IMG/VR virus record: IMGVR_UViG_3300044712_000743
Coordinates: 1-37,945 of that record
Length of the DNA: 37,945 nt
Strand: one strand, 5' to 3'
Source: a virus
The translations under genes were made by a program, and so were the position numbers. Shown piece by piece: positions 1,021-25,339 of this stretch; position 1 is the stretch's first letter; each line of letters starts with the position of its first letter. A model generated the notes under the pieces. The model saw only the letters and a program-made list of their open reading frames with translations, was not told the origin of the DNA and searched no databases.

Positions 1021-1212
1021 CTATGGCCGCGAGTCAGCCGGACATGTGGAAAACAACCAAGGATGCGTGCGGGTGGCGCAGCGCTGCAGAGGGTGAAAGC
1101 ATTTCTGGTCTATCCGGAGCCACTCGCAGCTTTCGCAGCGAGCTTGGCTTTCACCCTTGGGCCGTTGATCAATTGGCACCTCAACTCCGTGCCGGTCAAA
1201 CTCCCGCCTCAT
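1021..1212 (-). CDS. Small cysteine-rich protein
   Basis: A 63-residue protein whose ATG overlaps the stop of the upstream gene as ATGA, which suggests translational coupling. Five cysteines (26, 29, 38, 45, 57) begin with a C-x2-C pair and could bind a zinc ion. It is basic at the N terminus and has no signal or membrane segment. I do not recognise the family. Its place between the last tail genes and the methyltransferase makes a small accessory protein likely. The main support is the coupled start and the cysteine spacing. Confidence 0.55.
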   Translation of the reverse strand: MRREFDRHGVEVPIDQRPKGESQARCESCEWLRIDQKCFHPLQRCATRTHPWLFSTCPADSRP

Positions 1213-4271: not shown

Positions 4272-6245
4272 CTAGCGGTTGGTGTCAAACTGGCTTTGGA
4301 TATCGGCGAGAGCCTTGTTTATCTTGGCATTCAGCGAATTCAGTGACACCTTGAATGAAGGAGCTATCTGATCAATGGTTTTTCCCAAATCGTTTACTGC
4401 AGACGCCATCCCGGCAAGATCGGCTGCGGTTCGACTATCCTTACCCAACTGTCCCGACACGTCTCTTACCAGTCTTAGCGCCTCAACGTCTCGGGAGGCC
4501 TGGAATTCCTCCTTGTTGTAGTCCATCGAGCGGCCAATAATGGTGCGCTGATAGAGGTTGTCGCGGACACGCTTGGAGGCTTCGGGGACGATGGTGGACT
4601 GCAGGCCTTTCAAATGGGTCAACTCTCGCTGTTCATCTTGCAGCGATTGATAGCCGTCGGGAGCTCCAACCATGATGGCGCGATCCAAGGCGACGTTCTT
4701 TCTTAGCTCAAGATCGGTCACCTTTTTAGCCAGGAATCGTCGGTTTACCAGGGTTTGAGGGTCAAAATTCGGGTCGGTATCTGGACTGCCCAGCGCTTCG
4801 TTATCACCCAACTCCTTGCGGGCTCTGTCCAGCTCCCTGGCCAGCAACTTCGCCGAATCCCTTTCCTGTTCGAACTTGTTCGCCTGATCAACCCTGGCCT
4901 GCTGCGACGAAACCTTACCATTGATATCGTCCACCTCTTGCTGGGCCTTTTTTGCCTGCTCAGTGGCTTGTTCCTGCAGTCGGCGCTCCTCGATCTGTTT
5001 CCGCATGAAAGACCGCCCGGCATATTTGTCCTCGATCATGGCCTTATCGGCGGCCGCCCGGATGGGATTTATCTCGCCCAGTGCCAGCCTTCGGTCAACC
5101 GCCGCCATTTCGCCTTCCTTGGCGTAGCTGTCCATCTTTTCGGCGTGGCTTAACTCCTCACGCTTTTCCTCGTTGAGATTCTTAAGCGCCTCTTCTGTCT
5201 TGGAAACGGATTCCTTGTATCCGTCCATCGCCTTTTTGCTGCGCTCCGTGGCCGCCCGGCTGTCATCCATAGCCTGAGACGATCGACGCAAGGCATTCTG
5301 CATCCCGGAGATGTTGGGCAGTGTTCCGCCAATCATCTCAGCCCAAAACTTAGCGGCTACGGTTAGGCCAGTAAGACCGGCCTGCAAAATCCCAGTTTCG
5401 GCGACGAACCTCCCAATCCCCTCTTTCAGCTCGTCGAACTGAACGACCATCATCCGCCACTGGCCATTGAGCGTATTAACCGAGGCCTCGAGCTGTCCAC
5501 CGCCCCTGAGCGCCAGGGTCTGCATGAGCTGCTCCAATTTTTCGGTCTTGGAAGCGCTTTCATCCAGTACGATTCCGTAGCGGGAAAACATCTGGAAGGA
5601 GCCCTGCATGGCCCTTGAAAAGGCAGTGGAGGCACCCTGCAGGTCGCCGCCCATGATGCCAGCCAAGTTTTTTACAGCCTCGGTGTACTGGTCGATGTTC
5701 GTATTATCCGCGCCGAACTGGGTCAACCTGGTGATGACGGCCAGCCATTCGTCATCGGCTATGCCCGTGGCATCACGCATGGTTCCGGCCAACTCCTGTA
5801 GGCGCTCCCGGTATTGCCCCACCTGGATTCCGGCCTGCGCCAGGGCGGCGTCCAGCTTCACCACCTGGTCTTCGGCCTTGGCGTATTCGTCCAGGCCTTC
5901 CTTAGCCACCTCGGCGGCGGCGCCGACCGCCATGAATCCGGCGCTGACGGCGCCGAGCGATCCCGTGGTGAGCTTCCCGACCGTATCCTGCAGCTTGCCG
6001 AATCCCGGGACTATGTCGCGCAGGCCTTCGTTGGCTACTTTCATCCACTCGCCGACGGCCGTGCCTTCGTTAGCGCGCTTGAAAGCATTGATCTCGACCG
6101 TAGCGCGGGCCAGTTGGGCCTCCATGTCTGAAAACGGCTTGCCCATGGCCTTTGCCGCCCCGATCTGTTTCTCCAGCGCCGCGGCGGCCTGCTCGGCTCC
6201 GGCCAGCTCGGTGCGCGTCTTGATTAGGATTTCCAGGTCGGGCAT
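4272..6245 (-). CDS. Tail tape measure protein
   Basis: A 657-residue protein made of long helices. The N terminus starts MPDLEILIKTRTELAG and goes on with Ala/Lys/Glu-rich coiled-coil segments. A hydrophobic Ala/Gly segment lies near residues 95-112, and a second apolar stretch near 285-300. The region around residues 130-260 (KNLAGIMGGDLQGA, FSRYGIVLD) is typical of tape measure N-terminal domains. The protein fills the tail tube and sets its length; at about 0.15 nm per residue the tail would be near 100 nm. It is the shortest element of evidence for a siphovirus rather than podovirus tail, together with the tube protein. No lysozyme or peptidase domain is visible. Confidence 0.85.
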   Translation of the reverse strand: MPDLEILIKTRTELAGAEQAAAALEKQIGAAKAMGKPFSDMEAQLARATVEINAFKRANEGTAVGEWMKVANEGLRDIVPGFGKLQDTVGKLTTGSLGAVSAGFMAVGAAAEVAKEGLDEYAKAEDQVVKLDAALAQAGIQVGQYRERLQELAGTMRDATGIADDEWLAVITRLTQFGADNTNIDQYTEAVKNLAGIMGGDLQGASTAFSRAMQGSFQMFSRYGIVLDESASKTEKLEQLMQTLALRGGGQLEASVNTLNGQWRMMVVQFDELKEGIGRFVAETGILQAGLTGLTVAAKFWAEMIGGTLPNISGMQNALRRSSQAMDDSRAATERSKKAMDGYKESVSKTEEALKNLNEEKREELSHAEKMDSYAKEGEMAAVDRRLALGEINPIRAAADKAMIEDKYAGRSFMRKQIEERRLQEQATEQAKKAQQEVDDINGKVSSQQARVDQANKFEQERDSAKLLARELDRARKELGDNEALGSPDTDPNFDPQTLVNRRFLAKKVTDLELRKNVALDRAIMVGAPDGYQSLQDEQRELTHLKGLQSTIVPEASKRVRDNLYQRTIIGRSMDYNKEEFQASRDVEALRLVRDVSGQLGKDSRTAADLAGMASAVNDLGKTIDQIAPSFKVSLNSLNAKINKALADIQSQFDTNR

Positions 6246-6297: not shown

Positions 6298-6693
6298 TCA
6301 GGGTTTCGCGAAGGCGTTGGTCACGGTCACGTAATTGGTGATGGTCACGACATTAGTGACCGCGGCAACCTTGGTGTTGACCTCGAGGGTCGATTTCCTG
6401 AGCACCCAATCTTTGAGCCAGGCGCGCGAGTTCGTCGCTTCCAGCCAGTCCGTTGACTGCTTGGGCGTCAACGTCAGATCGATCCGGTCAATGACCTTGC
6501 CCCCAGGCCCGAGATAATAGATCGCTAGGAGATGCTCGCCCTTGAGTGTGAATGTCAGCGGATCGATCCGAATACGCTCGACCGCCATTGACGCCGTGGG
6601 CGTGGTACTGATTTCACTGTCGCTGTCGCCAACGGCCGCGACCGTGACGGCCAGGGCGATGGCAAGGATGGCGTTCAAAAGGTGTCGTTTCAT
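6298..6693 (-). CDS. Exported small protein of the fibre cluster
   Basis: A 131-residue protein beginning MKRHLLNAILAIALAVTVAA, a typical cleavable signal peptide. The C terminus has a short repeat of the form VTNVVTITNYVTVTN, likely a beta-strand stack. The ATG overlaps the TGA of the SGNH fibre gene (ATGA), so it is translated with that gene. I do not recognise the family. The signal peptide implies export of this gene product from the host cytoplasm, which is odd for a virion component. It may be a fibre partner or a surface-acting lysogenic factor. Confidence 0.6.
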   Translation of the reverse strand: MKRHLLNAILAIALAVTVAAVGDSDSEISTTPTASMAVERIRIDPLTFTLKGEHLLAIYYLGPGGKVIDRIDLTLTPKQSTDWLEATNSRAWLKDWVLRKSTLEVNTKVAAVTNVVTITNYVTVTNAFAKP

Positions 6694-9600
6694 GGTATGA
6701 TTGTTGGGTTAAACCGCATTAAGCCGCTAGATCCGCTTGATATTCCAACGCCGACAACCTGAACAACGCCATTCGTTGGTTGCGTGGTTGTGAATGCTCC
6801 AGCCGTCGTTTGGCTCAGGTAGCACCGGTAACCAGCGGTAAGGCCTGACGTGGTAAACAGTCCGGACAGCAAGACGTTCACCGTCTGGCCGGTTGTGCCG
6901 CCATCGGTTATGAGTCCAAACGCCTGAGTTGTGGCGCTGTTCGCCTGTGCCTTTGAGACATAACCATCGCTGGAAACGTAAACCAGATCGCCCGCGCTCA
7001 GCGTCTCCGCGGCGTAAAGTCGGACGGAATCGCCAGCCCAGTTTTTTGCGGCGGGAACGGCAAGCTGGCGTTGGGGAAGGTCATAGGTGTCGATGGCCGC
7101 CAAAACGATATTTGTCCCGTTCCCACGCAGGAATTGCCCAGACGTGGCCGCGCCAGCAACCTTGAAGTCGTGGGCGTCAACCGTGCCATGCGCAATCGCG
7201 CTACCGTTGACTTGCAGCTTGTTCGTTGTGTCGGAAGTTGGATCACCTATCACCACGTTTCCGCGATCAATCGCCAATGCGTTGTACCTTGCTCCGTTGT
7301 TGGTCTGCACCATGTTCCATCGGACGACACCACCGGCTGTGGTATCGGCATTGATTGTCAGCGAATAGTTGGCATCGGACTGGGCTGACATCGATAGCGT
7401 GTTCCCGGTGTAGGCATCGGGAGTTCCGATGCTGACTCTTGCCCAAGGGCTGGCTATGCCGAAGCCGGAATTGGCACCGCCGCCAAGCAGTAGTGGGATG
7501 TATGCGCCAGCGCCACGGTCATATCCGAAAACAGAAACGCTGCCGCTGTTGGGTGAAACCTCCATCCCATAGCGGCCGTCTGAAACTACCAGCTTGTTTT
7601 GTGGGTTGCTGTAGCCGATGCCGACGTTGCCGTTATTGGCAATTCGCACAGCCTCATAAAGCCCAACGTATTGCTTGAACGTCATAAATGATAAACCGTT
7701 TGCACCCTGCATGTCAGCCTCTGGAACTGAATACATGCCACCTAAGGTGGTTGCTCCGTTTTGGGCTGTAACAACTGGGTACAGTGTTCCAAGCGATGCG
7801 TATGGCGTGTAAACGGAAAGAATTGTGTTTGGCGCGGAAAGGTTAAGTCCGATACGACCCCTATCAAACGAGATGGGATTGTACGCAACGCCGTAGTTTG
7901 TTTGAACCAATCCCCAACCCACAACGCAGCTATCTAAAACAGTGGAAGAAAATGAAAGCGAATAAGCTCCCGGCCATTCCTTGGTTGATAACGTCAGCGC
8001 GTTTCCAGTGTAATCTCCTGTCGTAACAGTGTGCAGCCTGGCCCCAGGACTCGCGGTGCCGATCCCCACGTTGCCTGGAATATACACCGTTGGTGTGTAA
8101 CTATCGCCCTTAATACTCAGTCCTAGATATGGATCATTAAACCCAACTTCTGCGTAGAAATTAAGGTCACTCAAGTACGGAGCTGCTCCGTTCTTCTTTA
8201 GTTCAATTGCTGGGATGCCGTGGTTGGCAAAACCCATCAGCACCGACACACTTCCGGTGCTATCAGTCGAGCCATACGATGAGTTTCTCAGGCTCAGCAT
8301 TGGTGAAGATCCAGACTCACCCAAAACGCTTAGCTTCACATTTGGGGCTGAATCGCCAATGCCAGCGTTCCCGGTTCCGTCCAGCGTCATCACGCGACGA
8401 CTGCCCAAAGTTGACGCCGAATCGGTGCCGTACTTCCAAACCCAAAAGTCGATGGCGTTGCCCGCCTCTGAGCCGCCCGAGTGTCGCGTACGAATCGAGT
8501 GTGCGTAGTTCGTGGTGTTACCGTAGCCAAGACGCACCTGGGCGATTCCGTTCTCACCTGCTGCGGTGTCACCGTTCCTGAGTGATAACGACGCTCCAGA
8601 GGCAGCTCCGTTGCCCATCACGTCGAGGCTTGCAACTGGATTGGTGACACCCACTCCCACACGTCCGTATTCGCTCAGTGACAGAGTGGTGTAATCGACG
8701 CCAGCCGCGAAGGTATGGAAGTCCAGGCCGGAATAGTAGTTGTCGATGAACCGGCCTTGAATGTACGAAGGTGAGATAAGATTTGCCGCAAGGTACAGCT
8801 TCCCGGCTCCGATCAATCCAACGTCTCCACCAACGTCAAGCTGGTGCGTTTGGTTGGTCCAGTTTATACCCACCAATCCGTTATGGAATGCCAGAACTTG
8901 ATGATCCACACCACCGGCCCGTTGGCGAAACTTAAAGTCAATCGCTGAGTCGTGGTAGTGCATGTCCAGCGTCAGCCCGTAGCTGCCCCAGTCTGGATTC
9001 CATGACCACCTCTGCATGGGGATTAGTGTCCCATCTCCGATGGTCCTGCCGATGTCCAGCGCGGCGGCGGTTTGGACGGTGCCGATGCCGACGTTCCCGT
9101 TTTCGTCTGCCATTACGGGAGTCAGCCATCCATTCCAACCGATGCCGTAGGTGCCAGTGCGGAGCGACACTCCAGACCCAGGAGATCCGCTGTTGATTTG
9201 CAGTCCCGCCCCGCCAGACTGGAATATCGTTGTGACCTGACCCGTCTGCGGGAATCCGCTCGTTGCGGCATAGCTGGAGATCCCAAGCGGATATTCAGAA
9301 ACGGTGGCCGAAACGTCGGCCAGCTTGTATGTTGTGGTTGGATTGCGGTAGTTGGCCGTGCCTAACAGCTTCTTGACGCTGGCAGGCATGATTACGTCCA
9401 TGATCACGTTTGCAATCCAGAGGTTCTCGGCCTCGGTTGGATGAATGTGCCGCCCATCTCCGAATGGATCGTCCATCCACAACGCATGCTCCGCGTCACG
9501 GAACAGCGTGAAGGTATCAATGAACGTGCATTGGTAGTCCCGCGCCGCCCGGCGAATGATGGGGATGATGGTTTTGAACCATGCTTCATCTCTCAATCCT

Positions 9601-10271
9601 GGGGTGTCGTTTACGCTGGTCGGGGCCATGAGCAGTATGGCCGTTTGGGCCAGTGAGCGGGTGGCCCGAACAGCCGCCAGCCCGGCCCTCATGTCCTCTT
9701 CAAATGTCTCCCGGTTCAACGGGCCGTCGTTGATGCCATGCCGCACGACCAGCAGGTCTGGATTCCTAGCAATCTGATTCGTAACCTGATCGTACCTCCA
9801 TTGGTGATACGAGGTGCCAGACACGGCATCGTTGTAAACATTGGCATCCCAGTAGTCCGACGCAATGAGGTTGCGAAGGATGTTGTGCATGAAATAGTTG
9901 GTGTCACCGATTCCATCCCCGGCTGTGGTAGAATCTCCAGCAAGCACGATGGTTGGCACTTGCCTGGCCATCAGTTTTTTGTGGAAAGCGTAGAGGTATT
10001 CCAGTCCAAACACATTTCCGCTCAGATCGCCGTGCGCGACGTTTCGCGCGTAAATCTGCCCCGACATTTCGAGCTGATTCGTGGCGTTGGTTACTCCGAT
10101 TCCGAAGTTGCCATTTAGCAGAAGTCCATTGGTCGGGCTCGTTACCAATCCGTTGGTATCCACCATCACGGTGCCCTGCCAAACCACGTTGTGGCCCAGG
10201 TTAAGGTCCAGTGTGGTGCCAGCGGACCAGGCCGTGAGCGCCGAGATAAATAGAGCGAACAGGATTCTCAT
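6690..10271 (-). CDS. Tail fibre with SGNH/GDSL esterase domain
   Basis: A 1193-residue protein. The N terminus (MRILFALFISALTAWSAG) resembles a signal peptide. An SGNH hydrolase domain spans about 105-300: AGDSTTAGDG with nucleophile Ser114, GIND at 179-182 (block III) and DGRHIHP at 272-278 carrying the Asp/His pair. Such enzymes remove acetyl groups from surface polysaccharides. From 55 to about 1060 there are at least nine NxGIG...L.V repeats typical of trimeric fibres. The last 110 residues (GDLVYVSSDGYVSKA, SGLTAGYRCYLS) look like a DUF2190-type beta domain. No intramolecular chaperone domain is visible. I chose the ATG at 10271 because it overlaps the upstream TGA as ATGA; the longer frame adds an Arg-rich shadow. 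Role inferred: adsorption with capsule deacetylation. Confidence 0.82.
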   Translation of the reverse strand: MRILFALFISALTAWSAGTTLDLNLGHNVVWQGTVMVDTNGLVTSPTNGLLLNGNFGIGVTNATNQLEMSGQIYARNVAHGDLSGNVFGLEYLYAFHKKLMARQVPTIVLAGDSTTAGDGIGDTNYFMHNILRNLIASDYWDANVYNDAVSGTSYHQWRYDQVTNQIARNPDLLVVRHGINDGPLNRETFEEDMRAGLAAVRATRSLAQTAILLMAPTSVNDTPGLRDEAWFKTIIPIIRRAARDYQCTFIDTFTLFRDAEHALWMDDPFGDGRHIHPTEAENLWIANVIMDVIMPASVKKLLGTANYRNPTTTYKLADVSATVSEYPLGISSYAATSGFPQTGQVTTIFQSGGAGLQINSGSPGSGVSLRTGTYGIGWNGWLTPVMADENGNVGIGTVQTAAALDIGRTIGDGTLIPMQRWSWNPDWGSYGLTLDMHYHDSAIDFKFRQRAGGVDHQVLAFHNGLVGINWTNQTHQLDVGGDVGLIGAGKLYLAANLISPSYIQGRFIDNYYSGLDFHTFAAGVDYTTLSLSEYGRVGVGVTNPVASLDVMGNGAASGASLSLRNGDTAAGENGIAQVRLGYGNTTNYAHSIRTRHSGGSEAGNAIDFWVWKYGTDSASTLGSRRVMTLDGTGNAGIGDSAPNVKLSVLGESGSSPMLSLRNSSYGSTDSTGSVSVLMGFANHGIPAIELKKNGAAPYLSDLNFYAEVGFNDPYLGLSIKGDSYTPTVYIPGNVGIGTASPGARLHTVTTGDYTGNALTLSTKEWPGAYSLSFSSTVLDSCVVGWGLVQTNYGVAYNPISFDRGRIGLNLSAPNTILSVYTPYASLGTLYPVVTAQNGATTLGGMYSVPEADMQGANGLSFMTFKQYVGLYEAVRIANNGNVGIGYSNPQNKLVVSDGRYGMEVSPNSGSVSVFGYDRGAGAYIPLLLGGGANSGFGIASPWARVSIGTPDAYTGNTLSMSAQSDANYSLTINADTTAGGVVRWNMVQTNNGARYNALAIDRGNVVIGDPTSDTTNKLQVNGSAIAHGTVDAHDFKVAGAATSGQFLRGNGTNIVLAAIDTYDLPQRQLAVPAAKNWAGDSVRLYAAETLSAGDLVYVSSDGYVSKAQANSATTQAFGLITDGGTTGQTVNVLLSGLFTTSGLTAGYRCYLSQTTAGAFTTTQPTNGVVQVVGVGISSGSSGLMRFNPTIIP

Positions 10272-11926
10272 GGGATATCGGTGACGGTCAGATGTTCGGT
10301 GCCGGCGGCGCCGCTGAGGGTGACTTCCTGGTATTTTCCCTGGGTCGCATTCCACAGGCGCAGGGTGGTTCCAGCGATACTGCCGGTGATACTGCGCTGG
10401 ACGATGTTCGTGGTGGTAGAAGTCTCGGACGCCGTGATGGTCGCGCTGTTCTTTTGGTTGGTAATCGTGTTGGCGTTGGTGGCGTTGCCAGACCAGGCCA
10501 CGGCCCCGACCACGTTCGTGCCGTAAACTTGTTGGCCGGTGTCACGCCAGAATCCAACCAATATCCAGCGGGCGGCGCTGCTGTCGTAAATGAGCGTGGC
10601 GGCGCAGGCGCCCGAGCTGGTGACGTCGCCGCCGGCCAGGGTGTAGATGCGGTTGGCAGTGGTGCCGGTGTCATTCTTAATAGTGACCGGGTAGCTGAGC
10701 GGGAAATAGAGGGTCACCACCTGGCCGTTAGCACCGGCGGTCAGGCCGCTGATGGAATAGGCCCCTCCCGGACCACTCGGGAACCGAACGAAGGAGTTGG
10801 TGCTGATGTTGACGTCGGCGTTGGCGCCGGTGGCCAGGCTGGTATTATCGAAGCGCTGCAGGGCCAGGTTGCCGCTGACAGCCGTGGCTCCAGCCAGCGT
10901 CCCGCCCGTATAGGTGCCGCCGGCCAATGCCCCCACCGTTCCGCTGATGCTGGTAGCGCCAGCGATGGTTCCACCGGTGATGGCCGCGCCCGCGATGGTG
11001 CCGCCTGCAATGGCCGCATTTGTGATGGTCCCATCCGTTACGGCCGCCCCGCTCACCGTGCCACCCGAGATGGCGGAGCCAGCGATGGTGCCTCCCTGGA
11101 TGGTGTTATTAGTGAGCGTCGATGATTTTAGGGTGGTATTGGATACCACGCCCCCAGTGAGCAGCTGGATGGCGGCGCTGATTGTCGCGTTGCTGATGGT
11201 GGTGTCCACCAGGCGGCCGGCTGCCACTACGGTATGCGAAGCCGATCCGAGCACGATTTGATTATCCGCCGTGGTCCTGGATCCGTTGCCAAAGGCAATC
11301 GAGTTTGCGTTCGTTGCGATCGATCCGGTTCCCAGGGCGATGGCATCAGTGGCATTGGACGAAAAAGCGCTACTCCCAATCGCCATCGACCGCAGACCAT
11401 GCGCCTGAGCCAGCACGCCCAGAGCGGTGGATTCCTGGCCTCCGGCCGTGGTTCCGTTCCCGATCGCCGCAGCCCAGGCGTTGGTGGCCTTGGCATTCGC
11501 ACCCACGGCCAGGGCTCCACCTACTGCAGTTGTAGCGCCAGAACCGAATTGCTCGCTGGCAATGCCAGTCCCAGGAGAGCTAAACGCGCTGCCCCGGTTG
11601 ACGCCATTGCTCAGCGTGGGGTTAAACCAGGTGCCATTGGTCAGCTTGTCCACGCTGCCGCCAAACACGCCGTTCGACGCGATCAACTGCCCGGTGAAGG
11701 TCTTGATTCCCGCCACCGTCTGGGTGCCGCTGCGGTTGACCAGGTTGGTCAGGAACAGTTCCGTGCCGGAGAGCAGGCTGGTGCTGCCCGCGAGGCCGTG
11801 GACCAGCAGGGAGGCGACAGTCGCGCTTGGAATAGGCACGCGCACGGCCACGCCGTCGTTGGTGGTGGCGGCGCGGCTGAACTGGATCAGCATCAGGATT
11901 GCAAAGAGGGTGCAGAATCGTTTCAT
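10268..11926 (-). CDS. Tail fibre / adhesin with YadA-like head repeats
   Basis: A 552-residue protein with an N-terminal signal-like segment (MKRFCTLFAILMLIQFSRAA). GTQTVAGIKTFTG at about 67-79 is a tail-fibre motif. Residues 137-230 contain AIGNGT, TALGVLAQ, MAIGSSA, IALGTGS and IAFGNGS units, the left-handed beta-roll repeats of YadA/Hep_Hag trimeric adhesins. Residues 278-325 are five decapeptides of the type GGTIAGAAIT, another beta-helix. The C-terminal third is a mixed beta domain. It is almost surely a trimeric receptor-binding or shaft protein. Its TGA overlaps the ATG of the SGNH fibre, suggesting joint production. Confidence 0.8.
   Translation of the reverse strand: MKRFCTLFAILMLIQFSRAATTNDGVAVRVPIPSATVASLLVHGLAGSTSLLSGTELFLTNLVNRSGTQTVAGIKTFTGQLIASNGVFGGSVDKLTNGTWFNPTLSNGVNRGSAFSSPGTGIASEQFGSGATTAVGGALAVGANAKATNAWAAAIGNGTTAGGQESTALGVLAQAHGLRSMAIGSSAFSSNATDAIALGTGSIATNANSIAFGNGSRTTADNQIVLGSASHTVVAAGRLVDTTISNATISAAIQLLTGGVVSNTTLKSSTLTNNTIQGGTIAGSAISGGTVSGAAVTDGTITNAAIAGGTIAGAAITGGTIAGATSISGTVGALAGGTYTGGTLAGATAVSGNLALQRFDNTSLATGANADVNISTNSFVRFPSGPGGAYSISGLTAGANGQVVTLYFPLSYPVTIKNDTGTTANRIYTLAGGDVTSSGACAATLIYDSSAARWILVGFWRDTGQQVYGTNVVGAVAWSGNATNANTITNQKNSATITASETSTTTNIVQRSITGSIAGTTLRLWNATQGKYQEVTLSGAAGTEHLTVTDIP
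10952..11095 (-). repeat. Tandem 30-bp coding repeats in fibre gene
   Basis: Five consecutive 30-base units encode decapeptides of the type GGTIAGAAIT (residues 278-325 of the fibre). The units are similar but not identical. They can change number by slippage or recombination, which would alter fibre length. Confidence 0.75.
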
Positions 11927-11930
11927 GGGG

Positions 11931-12581
11931 TTACGGTGCGATGGTGGTTACTTTGAATTCGCCGGTGTCGTCTACGCCCAGGACCACGGCCTTGCCATTG
12001 GTGGGGTGTACCAGGGTGATGGTCTTGCCGGCCGGGGCCACGAGCTGCAGGCAGCCGGCGATCAGGGCGTCCACCTCGGCCTTGGTGTAGCTGGTGGGCG
12101 GCGCTGGCGTCGGCGTGTCGGCCCCGCCGATGCCCGTTTCCACCACGAAGATCGAGCCATAGCCAATCTGGACGATGGCGCTGGGATCGGCCGTGGTGGT
12201 AGCCACGATGCTGACGAAGTATTCCGTTTGGTTTCCGGTCACGGTCAGGGCCGTGTCGGCGGCGGTGAGGGCGAATAAACCGTGCTGGCCGGTAGCGTCA
12301 TCCCAGCTGGCATGGCTCGCTTCGGTGATGGTGGTATCCAGGTCGCCAGCGTTGAGCGTTTTGGTGATGAGGCTGGCGCCGGTGCGCGTCGCCTTGATCC
12401 GCAGGGTGATGGTGGAGAAGTTGCTGATCGTGAGAATCTCGCCACCACTTTTGCAGAGCAGCTCGATCTGAACGTCGCTGGCGCGGGCGAAAGAAGGCGT
12501 TTTCGATCCCTCCAGGTCGGTAAATGATCCCGGCGAAGCGAGGTCGCACTCGATCCGGATCCGTTGGCGTGGGCAAATCAT
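11931..12581 (-). CDS. Fibre/baseplate-associated protein
   Basis: A 216-residue, Thr/Ile-rich, mostly beta protein. The N-terminal 140 residues (RIRIECDL, ISNFSTITLRIKATRTG, YFVSIVATT) look like a jelly-roll attachment domain as found at the base of siphovirus receptor-binding complexes. A Pro-rich linker (TPTPAPPTSY, about 154-163) is followed by a predicted helix TKAEVDALIAGCL and a small beta end domain. The linker and helix resemble trimerisation stalks. It sits 4 bp before the YadA-like fibre start and probably anchors that fibre. The family is not recognised with certainty. Confidence 0.6.
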   Translation of the reverse strand: MICPRQRIRIECDLASPGSFTDLEGSKTPSFARASDVQIELLCKSGGEILTISNFSTITLRIKATRTGASLITKTLNAGDLDTTITEASHASWDDATGQHGLFALTAADTALTVTGNQTEYFVSIVATTTADPSAIVQIGYGSIFVVETGIGGADTPTPAPPTSYTKAEVDALIAGCLQLVAPAGKTITLVHPTNGKAVVLGVDDTGEFKVTTIAP

Positions 12582-12584
12582 AGG

Positions 12585-13007
12585 TCAGTCAGTGTCTTTG
12601 GAGGTTTCACGGATTCGGCCGCCGGTGATTTGGTATTGGGCCACCCAGGCCACGCCGTTATACCGCGGGCTGGCCTGCACCACAGCGCTCTGGATCCAGC
12701 AAGTTTTCATCGCCTCGCCCCGTCCTCCGACCGTGATGGTGACATCCCACTGGCCCACCAGTTTGGCCTCCTGGGTAAGCACGAACCACTGACAGTCGGT
12801 GTGCGAAGCGAATCCGCCATCCACATCGAATGTCAGGTTGGTCTGGCTGTTAGATCGGTCGATGGCCTGGGCCTCGCGCCAGCGGCAGCCCTGGACGATC
12901 TGAATCAGCCGTCCGGGCTTGGGATCGAAATTGCTGATCGGCAGACCGCCATCATCATCGCCGAATACCATCAGCGTCTTCGGTGCTTTGAGGCCCTGGA
13001 TTTTCAC
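12585..13007 (-). CDS. Tail protein of unknown role
   Basis: A 140-residue protein, GTG start, 3 bp before the next ATG and 3 bp after the tube gene. It contains MVFGDDDGGLPISNFDP and RSNSQTNLTFDVDGGF, a compact beta pattern seen in small tail-tip or fibre-base proteins. The place after the tube gene is where siphoviruses keep tail assembly chaperones, but the beta-rich composition argues against that helical family. No frameshift signal between two overlapping frames is apparent. Function is inferred from position only. Confidence 0.6.
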   Translation of the reverse strand: MKIQGLKAPKTLMVFGDDDGGLPISNFDPKPGRLIQIVQGCRWREAQAIDRSNSQTNLTFDVDGGFASHTDCQWFVLTQEAKLVGQWDVTITVGGRGEAMKTCWIQSAVVQASPRYNGVAWVAQYQITGGRIRETSKDTD

Positions 13008-13010
13008 GGC

Positions 13011-13982
13011 TCAAGCTGTAGTGAGCGCCAGCGATGCGAGGGCGTTGACCGTGCTTCCTGTGAGCGTTCGGGTGGCGATCCAGCCCACCTCGCCATTGCG
13101 CAGCACGCTGGATCCGAACTTCATGCCGGATGACACCATGCCGGCCTTGGTGAGCGTGGCGGTGAGCAGCAGCGGCACGGCGCCAGCGGTAATTACTAAG
13201 TCGTGGGCCGTGGAAAGTCCGGCCACGCTTGCCCCGCGGACGCAGCCAGTATTTTGAAACAGCGGACCGCTGATCAGCTCCGCCTCAGCGATTCCAGAAG
13301 TGACGCCCAGCGGAACGCATTTCGCGCGCACCTCCAGGCTGCTGATCTGGTAATTATAAGTGCCGTACGCGTCGCACTTTTTCTGCGTCAGGCCCATGTC
13401 AAATTCAACACTCACCCCGTCCTCGGTGGTGAAGCTGCTCCAGGCGCCCGAGGCAGCCCAGGATAGCGCAGCCGACGCCTGCAGGACGCTGGCCGAGGCG
13501 AGGGAGCCAGGATCCGTGAAGGATGCGGTGGTGATGACGCAGAAGCTGGCGGAATCCGACCAGGCGGTGTTGTTTTTGTTGATGCAGGTGAATGTGACCG
13601 AACCGAAGGGCGTTTCGCCCGCCGAGATCTTGAGGGGCGGCATGCTGGTGACGGCCGCCGCCGCAAAGGTGATCTTCTTGCCGGCCACAGTCCAGATTTC
13701 AAGGGTGGCATCCGTGCCCGTGAAGATGAAGTCCCCGATCTTGGCGCCGAGGTACGGATACAGGTGGGCCAGGATGTCGGAGGTGATTTGGCCGACGGGC
13801 GTGAACGTGACCACGGCTTTGCGGTCCAGCAGGCGGGCATCGATTTCGCCGTACATGTCCGAGAGCACCTTGGCCAGCTCCCAGTCGCAAGCCACACTGA
13901 TGTCGGATTTCGAATAAAACACGTGCGTGCCAAAGGTGATGATGGCCGGGCCGGCGATGACAGTTGAACGATCGAGGGGCAT
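13011..13982 (-). CDS. Major tail tube protein
   Basis: A 323-residue protein starting MPLDRSTVIAGPAIITFGTHVFYSKSD. The N-terminal half (WELAKVLSDMYGEIDARLLDRKAVVTFTPVGQI) has the pattern of tail tube proteins that stack as hexameric rings. A second, Ala/Ser-rich beta half (from about 170) may be a surface-exposed domain; it contains YNYQISSLEVRAKCVPLG. It follows the tail terminator gene after a repeat-filled spacer and precedes the fibre block. No sheath gene is adjacent, which supports a non-contractile tail. Confidence 0.7.
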   Translation of the reverse strand: MPLDRSTVIAGPAIITFGTHVFYSKSDISVACDWELAKVLSDMYGEIDARLLDRKAVVTFTPVGQITSDILAHLYPYLGAKIGDFIFTGTDATLEIWTVAGKKITFAAAAVTSMPPLKISAGETPFGSVTFTCINKNNTAWSDSASFCVITTASFTDPGSLASASVLQASAALSWAASGAWSSFTTEDGVSVEFDMGLTQKKCDAYGTYNYQISSLEVRAKCVPLGVTSGIAEAELISGPLFQNTGCVRGASVAGLSTAHDLVITAGAVPLLLTATLTKAGMVSSGMKFGSSVLRNGEVGWIATRTLTGSTVNALASLALTTA

Positions 13983-13989
13983 ATTTTTT

Positions 13990-14022
13990 AGGAGTTAGGA
14001 GTTAGTAGCTAGGAGTTGGGAG
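13990..14022 (+). repeat. Spacer repeat, TAGGAGTT type
   Basis: Units of AGGAGTTAG recur three times with small changes and end in AGGAGTTGGGAG. They fill almost the whole spacer upstream of the tail tube ATG. On the transcribed strand they read CTAACTCCT. Same family as 6251-6283. Confidence 0.85.
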
Positions 14023-14039
14023 AAAGATGGGTTCGGGTT

Positions 14040-14765
14040 TCAGGTGAATATTGCGGTTACTGCGTTGCTGCTGATGTATCCGGTTTTGCTGGCGACGGCG
14101 CGGACGGTGCAGGCGGCGGTGATGGCCACCGGCGCACCGGTCCAGACGATGGCGTTGCTGTTGGGGGCGTACGGCGCGGATCCATCCAGAGTGTAGGTGA
14201 TGGTGGCGCTGCTGGTGGCGGAGGCCATCATGGTGATAGTGGCCGGGTGCGTTCCCGAGTTGGGGGTGATGACTGGCACCGAGCATTTCAGTACCGGATC
14301 AGTGTCGGATTCGTTGGTGCTGAACTTTACTTCGTAGGCCACCTGGGCGAGCGGATCGGCTACGGGATCGAGGGAATCCTTTTCGCTCATGATCAGCGCG
14401 GACAAGGCCGGGTGCGAGTATTGGTGCAGCACCTTCTGAATTCTCCGGGCCACGGCCGATGCGGGCTTGCCCGTTCCGCTGGCGCCAGTGTTGATCAACA
14501 CATTTTCCAATACGCGGATGGCGAAGTGCAGGCGCATGCACGGGCCGGGCACGTTCGGGTGCTCCACCCGTCCGGCTACTTGCAGGATCACGGCGCAGAT
14601 ACCCATCTTGCCGCCCTTGGTGGTGAGGGTGCCAAGGCGTTTCTGGATCTCGGCCGCGATGTCGCCCGTGCGCTCGGTCAGGACCGGGATGTCGGTGAAG
14701 TATTCATCCGCCGCCAGCCGGGCCGCCACATCGGCGCGCAGATCATCAATAAAAGTTTCGCTCAC
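14040..14765 (-). CDS. Tail terminator with C-terminal CHB_HEX_C-like domain
   Basis: A 241-residue protein in two parts. Residues 1-160 (FIDDLRADVAARLAADEYF, MRLHFAIRVLENVLIN) resemble phage tail terminator or minor tail proteins that close the tube at the head-proximal end. Residues 168-241 show the CHB_HEX_C_1 pattern: PVITPNSG, ATITYTLDGSAP with the typical TLDG-x-P turn, TVRAVASKTGYISS. This Ig-like domain is common in secreted carbohydrate-active proteins and is an unusual appendage here; it probably decorates the virion surface. The GTG start overlaps the upstream TGA. The domain call is firm; the terminator call is from order and length. Confidence 0.65.
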   Translation of the reverse strand: MSETFIDDLRADVAARLAADEYFTDIPVLTERTGDIAAEIQKRLGTLTTKGGKMGICAVILQVAGRVEHPNVPGPCMRLHFAIRVLENVLINTGASGTGKPASAVARRIQKVLHQYSHPALSALIMSEKDSLDPVADPLAQVAYEVKFSTNESDTDPVLKCSVPVITPNSGTHPATITMMASATSSATITYTLDGSAPYAPNSNAIVWTGAPVAITAACTVRAVASKTGYISSNAVTAIFT

Positions 14766-15325
14766 GTCAGCCCTCCTTTGCTCATCAGATAGCCGGTAAT
14801 TTCGCCCGCGATGTAATCGGATAGAACGGCATCGGCGGGCAGCACGGTGGAATCAGCCTGTTGATTGACTCCGGGCACCAGCCAGAACATCGGCTTGCCG
14901 GTGTCGATATCGGAGAGCCATTTCTTGCCGGTCTTGGGATTCATGTTGAATCGCAAACTGAATTCGCGGGCGCGGTGTCCATAGGCTTCGGCACAGGCCG
15001 GTATCGTGAGGTATTTCGGCGGATTGCTCGGCTCAATGGGACCGCCCTTGAACCGCTGTCGGATCCCCACCTGGTTCACGCCCAGCATCACGCCGTCCGG
15101 GAGCAGCGTGTAAAAGGTGCCGCGGGCGGCCTGGGCGTAGAAATGGGTGCGCTTGCCGCCGAGCTTGTTCGGGCGATCCACTTCCAGCTGCCGAAAGTGC
15201 GCCTTGAGGCAATTGACGCCAGCGCGGCCGGCCACGGGATTGATGCGCTCGCCAGCGAGGTTCGCCATCAGCGATTGCAGCGCCGGAGTAGCGTTGTCTT
15301 TGATGTCGATGGTGGTGGCGCTCAT
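14762..15325 (-). CDS. Tail completion / virion morphogenesis protein (Mu G-like position)
   Basis: A 187-residue protein starting MSATTIDIKDNATPALQSLMANL. Residues 30-80 are basic (NCLKAHFRQLE, NKLGGKRTHFYAQAARG), and the body holds KYLTIPACAEAYGHRA, a motif seen in morphogenesis proteins of Mu-like phages. The position between the F-like head gene and the tail terminator fits a head-tail joining or tail completion role. The ATG at 15325 was chosen because the frame upstream of it is only translated spacer repeat. Its stop overlaps the next start. Confidence 0.6.
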   Translation of the reverse strand: MSATTIDIKDNATPALQSLMANLAGERINPVAGRAGVNCLKAHFRQLEVDRPNKLGGKRTHFYAQAARGTFYTLLPDGVMLGVNQVGIRQRFKGGPIEPSNPPKYLTIPACAEAYGHRAREFSLRFNMNPKTGKKWLSDIDTGKPMFWLVPGVNQQADSTVLPADAVLSDYIAGEITGYLMSKGGLT

Positions 15326-15330
15326 ATTTT

Positions 15331-15400
15331 GACAGGATGAACAGGATGGACAGGATGCAGACTCAGGTTGTTTAATCCTGTTGATCCGGTTAATCCTGTC
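15331..15400. repeat. Spacer repeat, ACAGGAT type with inverted copies
   Basis: Three direct units (GACAGGATGA, ACAGGATGGA, ACAGGATG) are followed by three inverted ones (AATCCTGTTGATCC, TAATCCTGTC). GACAGGAT at 15331-15338 pairs with ATCCTGTC at 15393-15400. The transcript could fold into a hairpin just before the MSATTIDI start. A shorter relative lies at 35320-35356. Confidence 0.85.
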
Positions 15401-15419
15401 TGAATATTTGTCCCAGCCT

Positions 15420-16250
15420 TCATGCTTCTTTCTTCCTAAGCACATCGCCGTCGAATTCGTAGCCGTCGCCCAGGCTGGCTAGCAGCGCGTCGCGCATCGG
15501 GCCTTCGGCCACCGGAGCGGCGACTTCCAGGCCATCGTTGAAGCCGCGGGTTTGCGGGGATACTTCCTCATCCGGGGCTAGCAGCCCCAACTCCTCGGCT
15601 TCGGCTCGGGAGACGTCGCTGACTTCGATCCCGCTGTTGTAGTCGAAGGGCGGATAGGGCAGGCCGAATTCGGAAATGGTTTCCCAAATGGGATCGTTCT
15701 TGAGCGCGATCATGCGGCCTTCGCTGAATCCATCCTCGATCGGTTGGCCCGGAGGCATGCCGGCGAAGATCTGGCCGCCGGCGCCGCGCCAGCGTTCGTG
15801 CCAGGTGCGTTTCTCTTTGCGATCCTCAGCGCGGATCAATTCCTGGGCCGGGTAGGCATCGAGCGTGTCCTGTCCCTGCATCCAGTCGCCATAGCCATGG
15901 GCCATCTTGGTATTGGTTTCGATCACCAGGTTGAGGCGCTGATCGCTGCGCAGATCCTTGATAGTGCCGGCGTCTTCCTGGATGGGAATGTAGCCGATGC
16001 CATCCAGCGAGTCTTTCAGCGCTAGGCGGACGGTGGCCGGATCGGTTTTGCCATCCACCAGGTCGGTTACCCGGTCGAATATCTCCTGCAGGTGGCTTGC
16101 ATAGACCGTGCGGGCGCTGAACAAGGCCCGTTCCCGGATGGCCGCATCGATCTCCGCCAGCTCCTTGCTCGAAAGCGACGTGGGCAAGCTGCCCTTGGCG
16201 CGCAGGGCGGCCAGGGCTTGCTGGAAGGGAGATTGATTTCCGAGGTTCAA
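15420..16250 (-). CDS. Mu F-like minor head / head morphogenesis protein
   Basis: A 276-residue protein. It contains a helical N-terminal half (DPATVRLALKDSLDGIGY, DQRLNLVIETNTKMAHGYG), then TWHERWRGAGG and LPYPPFDYNSGIEVSDVSRAEAEELGL, the last typical of F-like head proteins of transposable phages. The family acts in portal-neck assembly and remains in the virion. The order differs from Mu, where F follows the portal directly; here it follows the adaptor gene. The start is a TTG at 16250, within the final unit of a spacer repeat and without a Shine-Dalgarno site, so the start is uncertain. Confidence 0.65.
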   Translation of the reverse strand: MNLGNQSPFQQALAALRAKGSLPTSLSSKELAEIDAAIRERALFSARTVYASHLQEIFDRVTDLVDGKTDPATVRLALKDSLDGIGYIPIQEDAGTIKDLRSDQRLNLVIETNTKMAHGYGDWMQGQDTLDAYPAQELIRAEDRKEKRTWHERWRGAGGQIFAGMPPGQPIEDGFSEGRMIALKNDPIWETISEFGLPYPPFDYNSGIEVSDVSRAEAEELGLLAPDEEVSPQTRGFNDGLEVAAPVAEGPMRDALLASLGDGYEFDGDVLRKKEA

Positions 16251-16274
16251 GGGTTAAAGGGTTAAAGGGTTCAG
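16246..16274 (+). repeat. Spacer repeat, GGGTTAAA type
   Basis: GGGTTAAA is repeated twice, flanked by TTCAAGGG and GGGTTCAG. It overlaps the TTG start of the F-like gene and the 3' end of the adaptor gene (16271), so the stop of one gene and the start of the next lie inside or at the edge of the repeat. Confidence 0.85.
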
Positions 16275-16735
16275 AGGCCTTCCATTGAGGTCCGCGTCGC
16301 TTTGCGGGTGGGCTGGGTTACGAGCTCAACTCCGCCTCCGGCCTGCACGTCGGCATCAATCGCGTCCCTGGGCGTGCTGATGGGGAAATCAACCGTGCCT
16401 GCGATGTCGAGGTCTTTATAGGCCCTGGTGATCTGGCTGCGAAATTCCTCAGTGAGCTGGAGGCTGGATACAATGCTGAACAGGCGGCCGGCGATAGCTT
16501 CGATGATCAGGAGGCACGCCTGGTGCTTGAGCTCGGGAGGCACAGAGTAGGCGGTGGCGCTGAGACGGACCCTGCCGGCGATGCGGTTGCGCACGTAGTC
16601 GCTGCGCGAGCGCATCAGTTCGGTAAACGTGTCCAACTGGCCGGATCCCAGCGCGGCCGATCTGAACGAGGTCATGCCGGCAGATAACAGCACGTCATCC
16701 AGGTGGGCAGCGGTGATGACTATCCAGGAGCTCAT
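16271..16735 (-). CDS. Head-tail adaptor (gp36/DUF1320-like)
   Basis: A 154-residue helical protein beginning MSSWIVITAAHLDDVLLSAG. The segment VPPELKHQACLLIIEAIAGRLF matches the helical core of adaptor proteins that join the portal to the tail in Mu-like phages, where a P-x-x-L-K turn precedes the central helices. Gene order (capsid, then this, then morphogenesis and tail genes) agrees. The C terminus is an acidic and then basic tail. I am moderately sure of the adaptor role and less sure of the precise family. Confidence 0.55.
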   Translation of the reverse strand: MSSWIVITAAHLDDVLLSAGMTSFRSAALGSGQLDTFTELMRSRSDYVRNRIAGRVRLSATAYSVPPELKHQACLLIIEAIAGRLFSIVSSLQLTEEFRSQITRAYKDLDIAGTVDFPISTPRDAIDADVQAGGGVELVTQPTRKATRTSMEGL

Positions 16736-16738
16736 GAC

Positions 16739-16770
16739 AAAGGCTAAGGGCTAAAAGCTGAAGGCTAAAG
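16739..16770 (+). repeat. Spacer repeat, AAAGGCTAA type
   Basis: Units AAGGCTAAGGG, CTAAAAGCTGAA and GGCTAAAG follow each other upstream of the adaptor start. A related element is at 25936-25960, in the opposite sense relative to its gene. Confidence 0.85.
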
Positions 16771-16816
16771 TATCAGCCGGGTTAGTCACCTCCCCGGCGC
16801 TTGGGTATAGATCGCG

Positions 16817-17278
16817 TCAGTTGAACCACCCGTACTGCACCCGGTAACACGTGACGGTATTACTGGCGGCCGTGGTCATGGTGGCCCATCTTATGTAACG
16901 CGCGCCATCCAGTTTGGAGCGGTCAAACAACGTGTATTTAGCCACCACGTTGGTGGCGGCCGTGAACGGCACCGTGACGGTCAGGTTTGCGGCACTGGTG
17001 GTGTAGTTGGTTCCATCGATGCTTACCTGGAAGGTCAGCACTGCTTCGTTGGTGGCTCCCGCCGATCCACCCAGGAACGGGATAATGGCGATTCCACCTT
17101 TGGCGGGAAGCTCCACGCGGGTGGAATTCACCGTGTAGGAGGTGAGGTTGTCGAAGGCGTTGGATACGCCCGTGCCGGCGAAGTTCCCGTAATTCAAGGG
17201 AACCACTTGTGCGGACGCGGGCATGGCAACCAGGGCCAGGACCGCAATCGCGATTAGACTGAGAATAGTTCGTTTCAT
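16817..17278 (-). CDS. Secreted protein next to the capsid gene
   Basis: A 153-residue protein with a classic signal peptide (MKRTILSLIAIAVLALVAMPASA, cleavage after ASA near residue 23). The mature part is Thr/Asn-rich and beta-type (TFQVSIDGTNYTTSAANLTVTVPF). There are no cysteines in the N-terminal half of the mature part and no catalytic motif. The ATG at 17278 gives the complete signal; a longer frame to 17323 adds residues encoded by spacer repeat. It sits between the capsid and adaptor genes on the same strand, so it should be made late. A decoration, pore or host-envelope role is possible; none can be shown from the sequence. Confidence 0.65.
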   Translation of the reverse strand: MKRTILSLIAIAVLALVAMPASAQVVPLNYGNFAGTGVSNAFDNLTSYTVNSTRVELPAKGGIAIIPFLGGSAGATNEAVLTFQVSIDGTNYTTSAANLTVTVPFTAATNVVAKYTLFDRSKLDGARYIRWATMTTAASNTVTCYRVQYGWFN

Positions 17279-17287
17279 TGTTTCTAT

Positions 17288-17314
17288 GGTTTCAGGTTTG
17301 CGTTTCAGGGTTCG
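17288..17314 (+). repeat. Spacer repeat, GTTTCAGG type
   Basis: GGTTTCAGG, GTTTGCG and GTTTCAGGGTTC stand in tandem upstream of the secreted protein start. On the transcribed strand they read CCTGAAAC, as at 25249-25280. Confidence 0.75.
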
Positions 17315-17353
17315 AATCCACACGGTGGATAACCCGAAGCTGTTTGGCTTCGC

Positions 17354-18289
17354 TTAGGTGATCGCTAGCAGTTTCGCGGCGAGGGTGCTCGTTTGTTGAA
17401 TGTCTTCCGACCAGTCCACGCAGTGGATGTCAGACGAGGCGGACTCATCACGGTAGGTCTTTACCGATTCCACCAGCACGTCCGAGGTGCTGAAGCACTT
17501 GAACGCGCTCGGGTCATAGACCGTCGGATTCGGGAGCGAGTAGATGAGGATCGCGTACGCTCCGAGAAGATTGCTTTTCGCAACCGTGGTCTGGCCCGGC
17601 TTGGTCACGGTGGAGCTGGCAGCCGTGATTAGTGGCTCCACTGGCACCATGAGCATGTCCACCAGATCGCCCATTTTCATGGCGGTCTTAACTCCGGCCA
17701 GGCGGCTCTTCGCTTTGGCATTCATCCGCAGCTTGCGGAAGGCCGTGGTGCTCAGGATGAGCTTGATGTTTTCCGTGGAGCCCACATCGGTGGCCAGGTT
17801 TTCCAGCTGCTCATCCAGCTGGTCGATCGGGTCAACACTGTCGCTGGACCAGTTGCCGCGGTCGGTTACCGCAGTCATTCCCGCCAGGAACGTGGCGACC
17901 GCCCGGGCGGCGTAAGAGGTGGCCTTCGTCGACAACATGGCTTTGACCTTGCCCTGGCTTAGCAACTCATCGCTGATGTTGCTGGCGCCCGCGAGAGACT
18001 TCTCGTGATCATCCACGGTCACCTCAAGGCCATGCGGCCGGCAATTGTAGTTGCCGTCGGTGGCGGCATACTGGATGCGGGTGCGGGTGCCGCCCAGGCC
18101 GCGCTGGGTGTCCACGACAGAAAACGAGTTTCGGTCGTCGAACTTTTTGAACGTGCCGGCGGCGCCGGTCACCTTGACGATGGGACAGAGCAGCCGGGCC
18201 AGCGCAAAGGCGGCCAAGCGATCCTGCACGAAGCCCTGAGCAAAAGTAGTCAGGGGGACATTGATTGAGGCAGTGGAGGTAGCAGACAT
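17354..18289 (-). CDS. Major capsid protein (probable)
   Basis: A 311-residue protein. It begins MSATSTASINVPLTTFAQGFVQDRL; residues 40-100 are a beta-rich arm (GTFKKFDDRNSFSVVDTQRG, LEVTVDDHEKSL), and residues 110-230 a helical spine with KLILSTTAFRKLRMNAK. LLGAYAILIYSLPNP and TYRDESASSDIHCVDWSEDI at the C terminus match capsid proteins of the HK97 fold in transposable phages of B3 type. It follows the protease/scaffold and the decoration protein, the expected order. No separate helical prohead delta domain precedes it, which agrees with a separate scaffold. Confidence 0.78.
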   Translation of the reverse strand: MSATSTASINVPLTTFAQGFVQDRLAAFALARLLCPIVKVTGAAGTFKKFDDRNSFSVVDTQRGLGGTRTRIQYAATDGNYNCRPHGLEVTVDDHEKSLAGASNISDELLSQGKVKAMLSTKATSYAARAVATFLAGMTAVTDRGNWSSDSVDPIDQLDEQLENLATDVGSTENIKLILSTTAFRKLRMNAKAKSRLAGVKTAMKMGDLVDMLMVPVEPLITAASSTVTKPGQTTVAKSNLLGAYAILIYSLPNPTVYDPSAFKCFSTSDVLVESVKTYRDESASSDIHCVDWSEDIQQTSTLAAKLLAIT

Positions 18290-18814: not shown

Positions 18815-20086
18815 TTACTTGTTTTCGGTGAACAACTGCGGACACTCCTTGCGCGCCGCGTTGAAGGCGTCCTCAAATGACATCCCGGTTTTTTGCTGGA
18901 TTTCCGCCACCTTGCTATGAATGGCGACGCTCTGTTCCTGCGCGTTGGCGATCGCGGCCTTGCGCTCGCCCAGGTTTCCGGTGGCCGGCTTGGTCTTGAG
19001 CGCGGGCGGGAGTTTCTCCAGCGCCGGGAGCTCGTTGGTGAAGTTGGATTCCAGCTTGTTGGCCCAAACGGGGCGATCGGCGGGAGCGATCCGGCCGGCA
19101 GTGATGGCCGAATCCAGCGCGCCTTCGATGCGGGCTTTGCGCTCGTTGGTGAAGGCGCTTTGCTGTTCGGCCAGTTGGCCATTGATCCGCACCATCACCG
19201 CGTCCTTGGCAGCGAGTTCGGTTTTTACGGTGTCGCGTTCGTTGGCTACGGAGGCCAGCTTGGAGTCCACCTGGTCTAGGCCGGCGAGTACTTGTTCGTC
19301 GGTTGCGTCGTTGGCCAGGGAAACGCCGTGCTTGGCCAACCACGGAATCAGTTTGCTTTTATCCATGATGCTATTGGGTTGGGGTTGATCGGCGGTCCCA
19401 TCGGGGACGCCTTCGTTGGTGAGGTGGCGCACCGGCAAGTTGGGCCGGTTCGTCAATCCCGCCGACCGAAACACGGTCGGGCGGAAAATGGGTTTGCTCC
19501 CGCTAGGGGCTTCGGGGGACACCTCGTTGGCCAGCCAGTAAGCCGACACGGAGGTGAAGGCCTTCGATTCGATGGCTGCTGCTCCCTCTTCGGTGAGCAC
19601 GGGCTTGCCATACAGTCCATCGTCGCGCGCCTCCAGCGCGGTAAAAATGCCGCGCGGCTCCTTGTCTGCGTACTCGTTGCCGATGCCCGGTGCGTCCGGG
19701 TGTCCGACATAGAGCTTGCGTCCGCGCAGGAATCGCCTGGCGCTGCCGGCCAGGCTGTGAAACTCGTTTACCATGTCCGCCACCGCCTGGCGGTCTAATC
19801 GCTGAATGGCTGGCTCGGTTTTCACCGTGCCGTCGGGCTGCGACAGGAGCACCTTGCCGGGAAAATCGCCGTACGGCGCCAGGTGCATCCAGCCGTCTTC
19901 CTGGATGCGCAGATCGTTGACGATGCCGACCAGGGCGTCGGAGACCGTGTTTGCGAAACTGGCACCTAACGTGGAACCGCTTTGCAAAACGCCGGAACCC
20001 CTTTGCAAAATGACCGGAGCGGCCGGCGAGGGTTGTGACAGCCTGCGGCGCATTAAACGCGCTATAAACGAAATCGTGAGGTTCAT
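18815..20086 (-). CDS. Prohead protease and scaffold (Mu gpI-like)
   Basis: A 423-residue protein. Residues 60-220 form the protease part: MHLAPYGDFPG, QRLDRQAVADMVNEFHS, LYVGHPDAPG (the His is a likely catalytic residue) and SVSAYWLANE. From about 240 the sequence changes to an Ala/Glu/Lys-rich helical scaffold, starting MDKSKLIPWLAKHGVSLA (ATG at 19366). In Mu, an internal in-frame start yields scaffold Z from gene I; the same could occur here, but no Shine-Dalgarno site precedes 19366. The ATG at 20086 overlaps the portal stop (ATGA). Confidence 0.8.
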   Translation of the reverse strand: MNLTISFIARLMRRRLSQPSPAAPVILQRGSGVLQSGSTLGASFANTVSDALVGIVNDLRIQEDGWMHLAPYGDFPGKVLLSQPDGTVKTEPAIQRLDRQAVADMVNEFHSLAGSARRFLRGRKLYVGHPDAPGIGNEYADKEPRGIFTALEARDDGLYGKPVLTEEGAAAIESKAFTSVSAYWLANEVSPEAPSGSKPIFRPTVFRSAGLTNRPNLPVRHLTNEGVPDGTADQPQPNSIMDKSKLIPWLAKHGVSLANDATDEQVLAGLDQVDSKLASVANERDTVKTELAAKDAVMVRINGQLAEQQSAFTNERKARIEGALDSAITAGRIAPADRPVWANKLESNFTNELPALEKLPPALKTKPATGNLGERKAAIANAQEQSVAIHSKVAEIQQKTGMSFEDAFNAARKECPQLFTENK

Positions 20087-25248: not shown

Positions 25249-25339
25249 AAGGTTTCAGGGTGAAGGTTGAAGGTTTCAGGATCGTGTCACTGCGCGGGCG
25301 TCGTCTGTCCTGAACCCTGAACCCTTGAACCTTCAACCT
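25249..25339. repeat. Inverted pair of spacer repeats around a stop codon
   Basis: Units GGTTTCAGGGTGAAGG at 25249-25280 and the inverted family CCTGAACCCTGAACCC at 25309-25339 face each other. The stop codon of the holin-like gene (25287-25289) lies between them. In the minus-strand transcript the arms could pair imperfectly over some 30 bases. The distal arm is translated as the VEGSRVQGSG tail of the upstream protein. Confidence 0.75.

Follow-up and report, generated by a model that had tools for sequence, protein, structure and literature searches.

Predicted signal peptides on the fibre-slot and capsid-side genes of a Mu-type phage lineage suggest that outer virion parts could be exported and joined to the particle at lysis

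In the textbook account, tailed phages are assembled in the cytoplasm. Virion proteins with cleaved signal peptides are known from the filamentous phages (pIII and pVIII), but there the virion is assembled whole in the inner membrane and then extruded, and these are not tailed phages. Lys44 of phage fOg44 is a secreted endolysin: its Sec signal is cleaved, and the protein waits outside the membrane for the holin to act (PMC6116005), so phages can keep proteins in reserve there until they lyse the cell; Lys44 is, however, a lysis enzyme and no part of the virion, unlike what we propose below for the signal peptide (SP) proteins of this study. The Lom protein of lambda is an SP protein coded among the tail genes (PMC12309495), yet it is an outer-membrane barrel made in lysogeny and has no homology to fibres. 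Decoration proteins of the Hoc/pb10/gp12 type bind carbohydrates on cells (PMC7602432). The tailed-phage GDSL fibres of Pectobacterium phage PPWS4 and Vibrio phage martha 12B12 resemble one of the fibres described here in their place in the late operon and in their fibre repeats, but their N-termini are SP-free whereas that of our fibre is a signal peptide. In the unrelated cultured myovirus phi1422 of Bdellovibrio, gp68 (L094:4851-6695, 614 aa) adjoins the tail-fibre gene and starts with MKFMIAFIIALFSVTMATAQ, a textbook SP; it shares with our fibres an SP beside a fibre gene, had no sequence match in the phage collection, and appears from its sequence to be an independent case of an SP protein near a fibre gene. 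We found no report in the open-access literature of SPs on tailed-phage fibres as a lineage trait.

The window, by which we mean the whole stretch of DNA analysed, is a viral contig of 37,945 bases with the late genes on the minus strand and the transposition genes on the plus strand. It contains a Mu-type portal found by Pfam, a terminase gene, a TniB/AAA MuB-like ATPase (the match to Phage-MuB_C is weak), and a Mu-type head protease and major capsid protein (phrog_328 and phrog_1005), and this gene content identifies it as a putative transposable phage of Mu type; the product of 31350-33359 is MuA-like by place and by eye, without a Pfam match. One tail-tube-like gene and no sheath gene were seen among the window genes, so the morphology is probably that of a siphovirus. 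The major capsid protein served as the query for finding relatives (referred to by L numbers), many of which are metagenomic contigs. The capsid-matched relatives that lie within bacterial genomes are all in Verrucomicrobiota, where 44 of 388 genomes gave a match, and the host of the window phage is therefore most likely a member of Verrucomicrobiota. The features on which the argument turns are these:

4272..6245, minus strand, tape measure protein, SP-free core part (phrog_1535, E=0.0023, and position)
6298..6693, minus strand, 131-aa small protein with a predicted SP, between the fibres and the tape measure; ATGA overlap with 6690-10271
6690..10271, minus strand, 1193-aa tail fibre or spike with a predicted SP; GDSL esterase domain (residues 112-281) and fibre repeats
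10268..11926, minus strand, 552-aa candidate tail fibre with a predicted SP; motif TQTVAGIKTF and YadA-head repeats
11931..12581, minus strand, 216-aa SP-free protein (ORF) upstream of the fibres
16817..17278, minus strand, 153-aa post-capsid protein with a predicted SP and one jelly-roll domain (ORF, family alignment, AF2 model)
17354..18289, minus strand, major capsid protein, SP-free core part (phrog_1005, E=7.6e-24)
20083..21618, minus strand, Mu-type portal, SP-free core part (PF06074, E=2.8e-56)

The initial annotation held that four genes of the late operon begin with export signals, and this was borne out. The four minus-strand ORFs 6298-6693, 6690-10271, 10268-11926 and 16817-17278 are real, start with ATG, and code for Sec-type SPs; the N-termini of the four proteins are MKRHLLNAILAIALAVTVAAVGDS, MRILFALFISALTAWSAGTT, MKRFCTLFAILMLIQFSRAATT and MKRTILSLIAIAVLALVAMPASAQVV. 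By rule, each has a positive n-region, a hydrophobic core and an AxA-like site, and none of the four has a lipobox. The predicted cut lies near residue 16-18 in 6690-10271, the SP of 10268-11926 covers about residues 1-19 (FSRA|ATT), and that of 16817-17278 covers residues 1-23 (...PASA|QVV), with the jelly-roll at about 25-153. Longer mechanical ORFs with GTG starts (6690-10355 and 16817-17323) are upstream extensions of two of these genes, and the ATG starts fit better. The starts of 6690-10271 and 6298-6693 overlap the upstream stop by 4 bases (ATGA), and the ATG of 10268-11926 lies 4 bases past the upstream stop, which indicates that the signal codons are the natural starts. Misread starts were ruled out by this ATGA coupling together with the coding-type substitutions and the absence of a conserved internal start. 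Starts behind the hydrophobic segments, which the initial annotation had named as one of the observations that would overturn its claim, were not found in any conserved form: some ATG, GTG or TTG codons do lie behind the signals in the window, and in 6 of the 15 relatives of 16817-17278 the 15 codons past the cleavage site include none.

The rule by which SPs were called asks for a positive n-region, a hydrophobic core and an AxA-type cleavage site within about 40 residues. It accepted seven of eight E. coli signal peptide controls (MalE was missed) and was positive for 1.9% of uncalled plus-strand ORFs. With genes called by a simple dynamic-programming caller, 41 of the 255 genes that follow the capsid gene in the window and its relatives were SP-positive, a few of them falsely through internal starts of tape-measure proteins, compared with 0 of 78 late-operon genes of alphaproteobacterial Mu-type phages (relatives of Pelagibaca phage P1). 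This difference (Fisher p=1.4e-5, a value that overstates independence given the shared ancestry of the relatives) rules out chance hydrophobic N-termini as the source of the signals. The packaging-to-capsid block upstream was not lower (20 of 158 SP-positive, among them lysis lipoproteins and false positives), and it was discarded as a control. Pooled dN/dS was 0.53 for the SPs and 0.24 for the mature parts; the SP codons evolve as coding sequence that is freer to drift than the mature part, as in signal peptides generally.

Two of the four products had also been described as evident tail fibres, a description that holds better for one than for the other. The case for 6690-10271 is supported by matches to the PHROG profiles phrog_8460 and phrog_9942, and by a GDSL domain that is 31-35% identical over about 280 aa to the PPWS4 and martha 12B12 fibres or spikes. 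The assignment of 10268-11926 is reasonable, with YadA_head repeats above the cut-off (PF05658, E=1.2e-7) and a weak BppL_N match below it; tblastn gave no match in the phage collection for this protein or for the 985-aa fibre of L032. A known trimeric autotransporter adhesin was rejected for 10268-11926 because the anchor domain is absent, no YadA C-terminal membrane anchor family having appeared when its full length was scanned with Pfam. Among the late-operon genes of the window we recognised no fibre candidate that lacks an SP. The SP-free protein 11931-12581 has a homologue at the same place in L002/L032 and no family match in profile searches, and it is possibly a fibre-docking or baseplate part.

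The same arrangement recurs in most of the relatives. SP fibre-slot genes number four in a row in L032, three in each of L033, L041 and L043, and two in L036, and one or more are present in L007, L015, L021, L029, L034, L035, L037, L040 and L044; in L006, L008, L009, L039 and L042 we recognised none. The slot of 6298-6693 is likewise occupied by small SP proteins in several relatives. One of the SP proteins (L007:7600-8637) matches tail fiber and minor tail PHROGs (6e-29 and 4e-28) as well as minor tail proteins of Arthrobacter and Gordonia phages, and the SP proteins of L029 and L036 match tail-fiber PHROGs. Homologous pairs of SP fibres carry different signals (L034/L035 and L015/L021), which points to signal swapping of the kind seen in the post-capsid protein described below. 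Fibre-slot SPs are also found in prophages of Verrucomicrobiota genomes (L098, L101-L103, L106 and L109-L111), on proteins of 643 aa in L102, 657 and 668 aa in L103, 747 aa in L106, 655 and 492 aa in L109, 452 and 398 aa in L110 and 401 aa in L111. SPs on virion-module genes thus read as a lineage trait that is wider than the window, conserved and, as far as we found in the literature searched, undescribed. None of the Flavobacterium, Maribacter and Arthrobacter fibre homologues that were checked has an SP. For the cultured verrucophage P8625, its authors' own SignalP run gave no SP (PMC4642752), and its fibres gave none by the present rule, so the trait is not universal in Verrucomicrobiota phages.

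Consecutive SP fibre genes are often joined as CCATGA, in which a Pro codon and the stop run over the next ATG (window 10268, 6690 and 6298; L032 and L033). This sequence could be a cassette junction.

In the majority of the first 30 capsid-matched loci, the product of the post-capsid gene is about 140-180 aa long and has an SP; in the others, the capsid gene is mostly followed at once by the next conserved head gene. On the capsid tree, the window's clade has 18 members, the window among them, of which 17 (all but L006) have a post-capsid protein with SP and jelly-roll, and further post-capsid SP cases lie outside that clade. The post-capsid protein of L050, which starts with MNIFAALLMLLTVLITAPPLKAQ, was tallied as lacking an SP because the charge rule missed it. 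In an alignment of 19 members taken from the same gene place (A3), identity to the window protein is 21-35%. The predicted cut, A23-Q24, is near-invariant across the aligned proteins while their signals are divergent, and some positions of a DGTN motif in the mature part are near-invariant too. Three members (L013 1819, L017 11033 and L019 10706) have prepilin-like N-termini (FTLIEI, FSLVEIMMVVAIIGIL and GGFTLVQLLLVICIIGIL) that end in the usual AQV; they have the look of type IV prepilins, yet their prepilin-peptidase sites are mostly poor. Judging from these sequences, it is as if host pseudopilin signals had been recruited, the signals being swapped and export kept.

The AlphaFold2 model built from 19 sequences (pLDDT 85) has a helix at residues 2-16, corresponding to the signal, followed by a single beta sandwich that begins at about residue 25 and takes up the rest of the chain. 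Foldseek and VIA-align returned matches at low identity to the TNF-like lectin BC2L-C, the projection (P) domain of IBDV VP2 and carbohydrate-binding modules; the best viral structure matches are uncharacterised phage proteins, and tblastn gave no match to 16817-17278 in the phage collection. The jelly-roll is a common arrangement and no proof of function. Like the Hoc/pb10/gp12 decoration proteins, the window protein is a small beta domain coded beside the capsid gene; it differs from them in its SP, in having a jelly-roll and not an Ig fold, and in being known here from position and fold, which make it a likely capsid decoration or surface protein. In another prophage subclade (L101, L059 and L063), a 300-420-aa protein with a lipobox-like signal (VSGC) lies near the capsid gene. 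In L024 (about 9854-10945, plus strand) no stop interrupts the capsid frame ahead of its usual start, and the in-frame extension, MKFSTKRFVLGLALITLWAIYSPVSLLIACILYTGLANML, resembles a signal or membrane segment.

It had been proposed that the fibres are either exported or kept at a membrane or virion by uncleaved signals. Export of the SP proteins is strongly suggested by their sequences, and of the two options cleavage is favoured, since the A|Q site is kept while the signal drifts and the modelled folded domain starts directly past the cut. SPs are predicted on parts that can be added last, namely fibres and surface proteins, and on none of portal, capsid, tube and hub, parts that have to be made in the cytoplasm and whose genes are SP-free in the listed relatives. 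Assembly in two compartments predicts this division, and likewise cleavage sites that persist while the signals turn over. We propose, at a probability of roughly 0.45, that the phage builds its virion in this way, with the outer parts docking at lysis. Late in infection, the peripheral parts (fibres, post-capsid protein and one small protein) would be exported via Sec and cut at the kept signal-peptidase-I sites. Folding or trimerisation of the cut parts would take place in the periplasm, at the time when tailed, DNA-filled heads are being put together in the cytoplasm; once holin and endolysin open the cell, the finished particles would meet and bind the waiting outer parts. Decoration proteins and several known fibres are able to bind finished particles. 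A still more tentative statement of the proposal is that tailed phages of Verrucomicrobiota may make their core in the cytoplasm and their fibres and capsid-side protein in the periplasm after Sec export, joining them at lysis. Two observations count against assembly in two compartments: the homologues of these fibre domains in other phages lack SPs, so fibres of this kind can do without export, and the verrucomicrobial phage P8625 manages without SPs. If the lineage does send its receptor-binding proteins and surface proteins through the export pathway, the folding of fibres, changes of host range, superinfection and lysis would all be tied to the secretion system of the host, and annotation that reads an SP as the mark of a non-phage gene would be wrong for these phages.

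The main rival to two-compartment assembly is that the SP proteins stay out of the virion and, once exported, work on the host envelope or beyond it, as phage adhesins or as receptor-masking lectins or esterases that prevent the trapping of progeny on debris or superinfection. Export signals are what such proteins would need, so the same signals are predicted; the GDSL/esterase domains and lectin-like folds would suit surface sugars, and lambda Lom is a known non-virion SP protein near tail genes (PMC12309495). However, the SP proteins occupy the fibre slot of the late operon and are translationally coupled there, several of them match tail-fibre or minor-tail families, and we recognised no further fibre candidate in the window. 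We consider action on the envelope without virion membership unlikely, though it has a real share of the probability.

A markedly less probable explanation is that the SP proteins belong to the virion and are assembled in the cytoplasm, their signals being bypassed through weak export, late Sec shut-off or a shorter product. That homologous fibres elsewhere function without export would agree with this, as would the possible start codons behind the window signals, but the kept cleavage sites and the repeated gain of new signals would be unexplained if the signals were unused, and a conserved internal start is lacking. Uncleaved signals acting as membrane or virion anchors are very improbable, because although a hydrophobic segment is kept, and 6298-6693 and the prepilin-like signals could remain in the membrane, it is the A|Q site that is kept and not the core, the modelled domain begins past the cut, and tailed virions have no membrane.

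Some other genes of the window and its relatives carry signals or surface-type features. The holin-like ORF at 25287-25934 (minus strand) has an in-frame internal ATG near 25709 that would give MAKQSVKLLLLGIVLVGMAGCTTALKSD, a lipoprotein signal; lipoproteins are found at a similar place in L004, L005, L012 and L024, and these are possibly spanin-like lysis proteins. The gene at 14040-14765 (minus strand), in a Mu gp37-like place, ends in a C-terminal Fn3_assoc/CHB_HEX_C domain (7e-10), a surface-type domain that is an extra on a tail-completion-like protein. The product of 1209-2282 (minus strand), for which there was no family match, begins with MTGTLGSCGCGCGVGW, rich in Cys and Gly; a protein coded after the hub gene of L043 has a similar, Cys-rich beginning.
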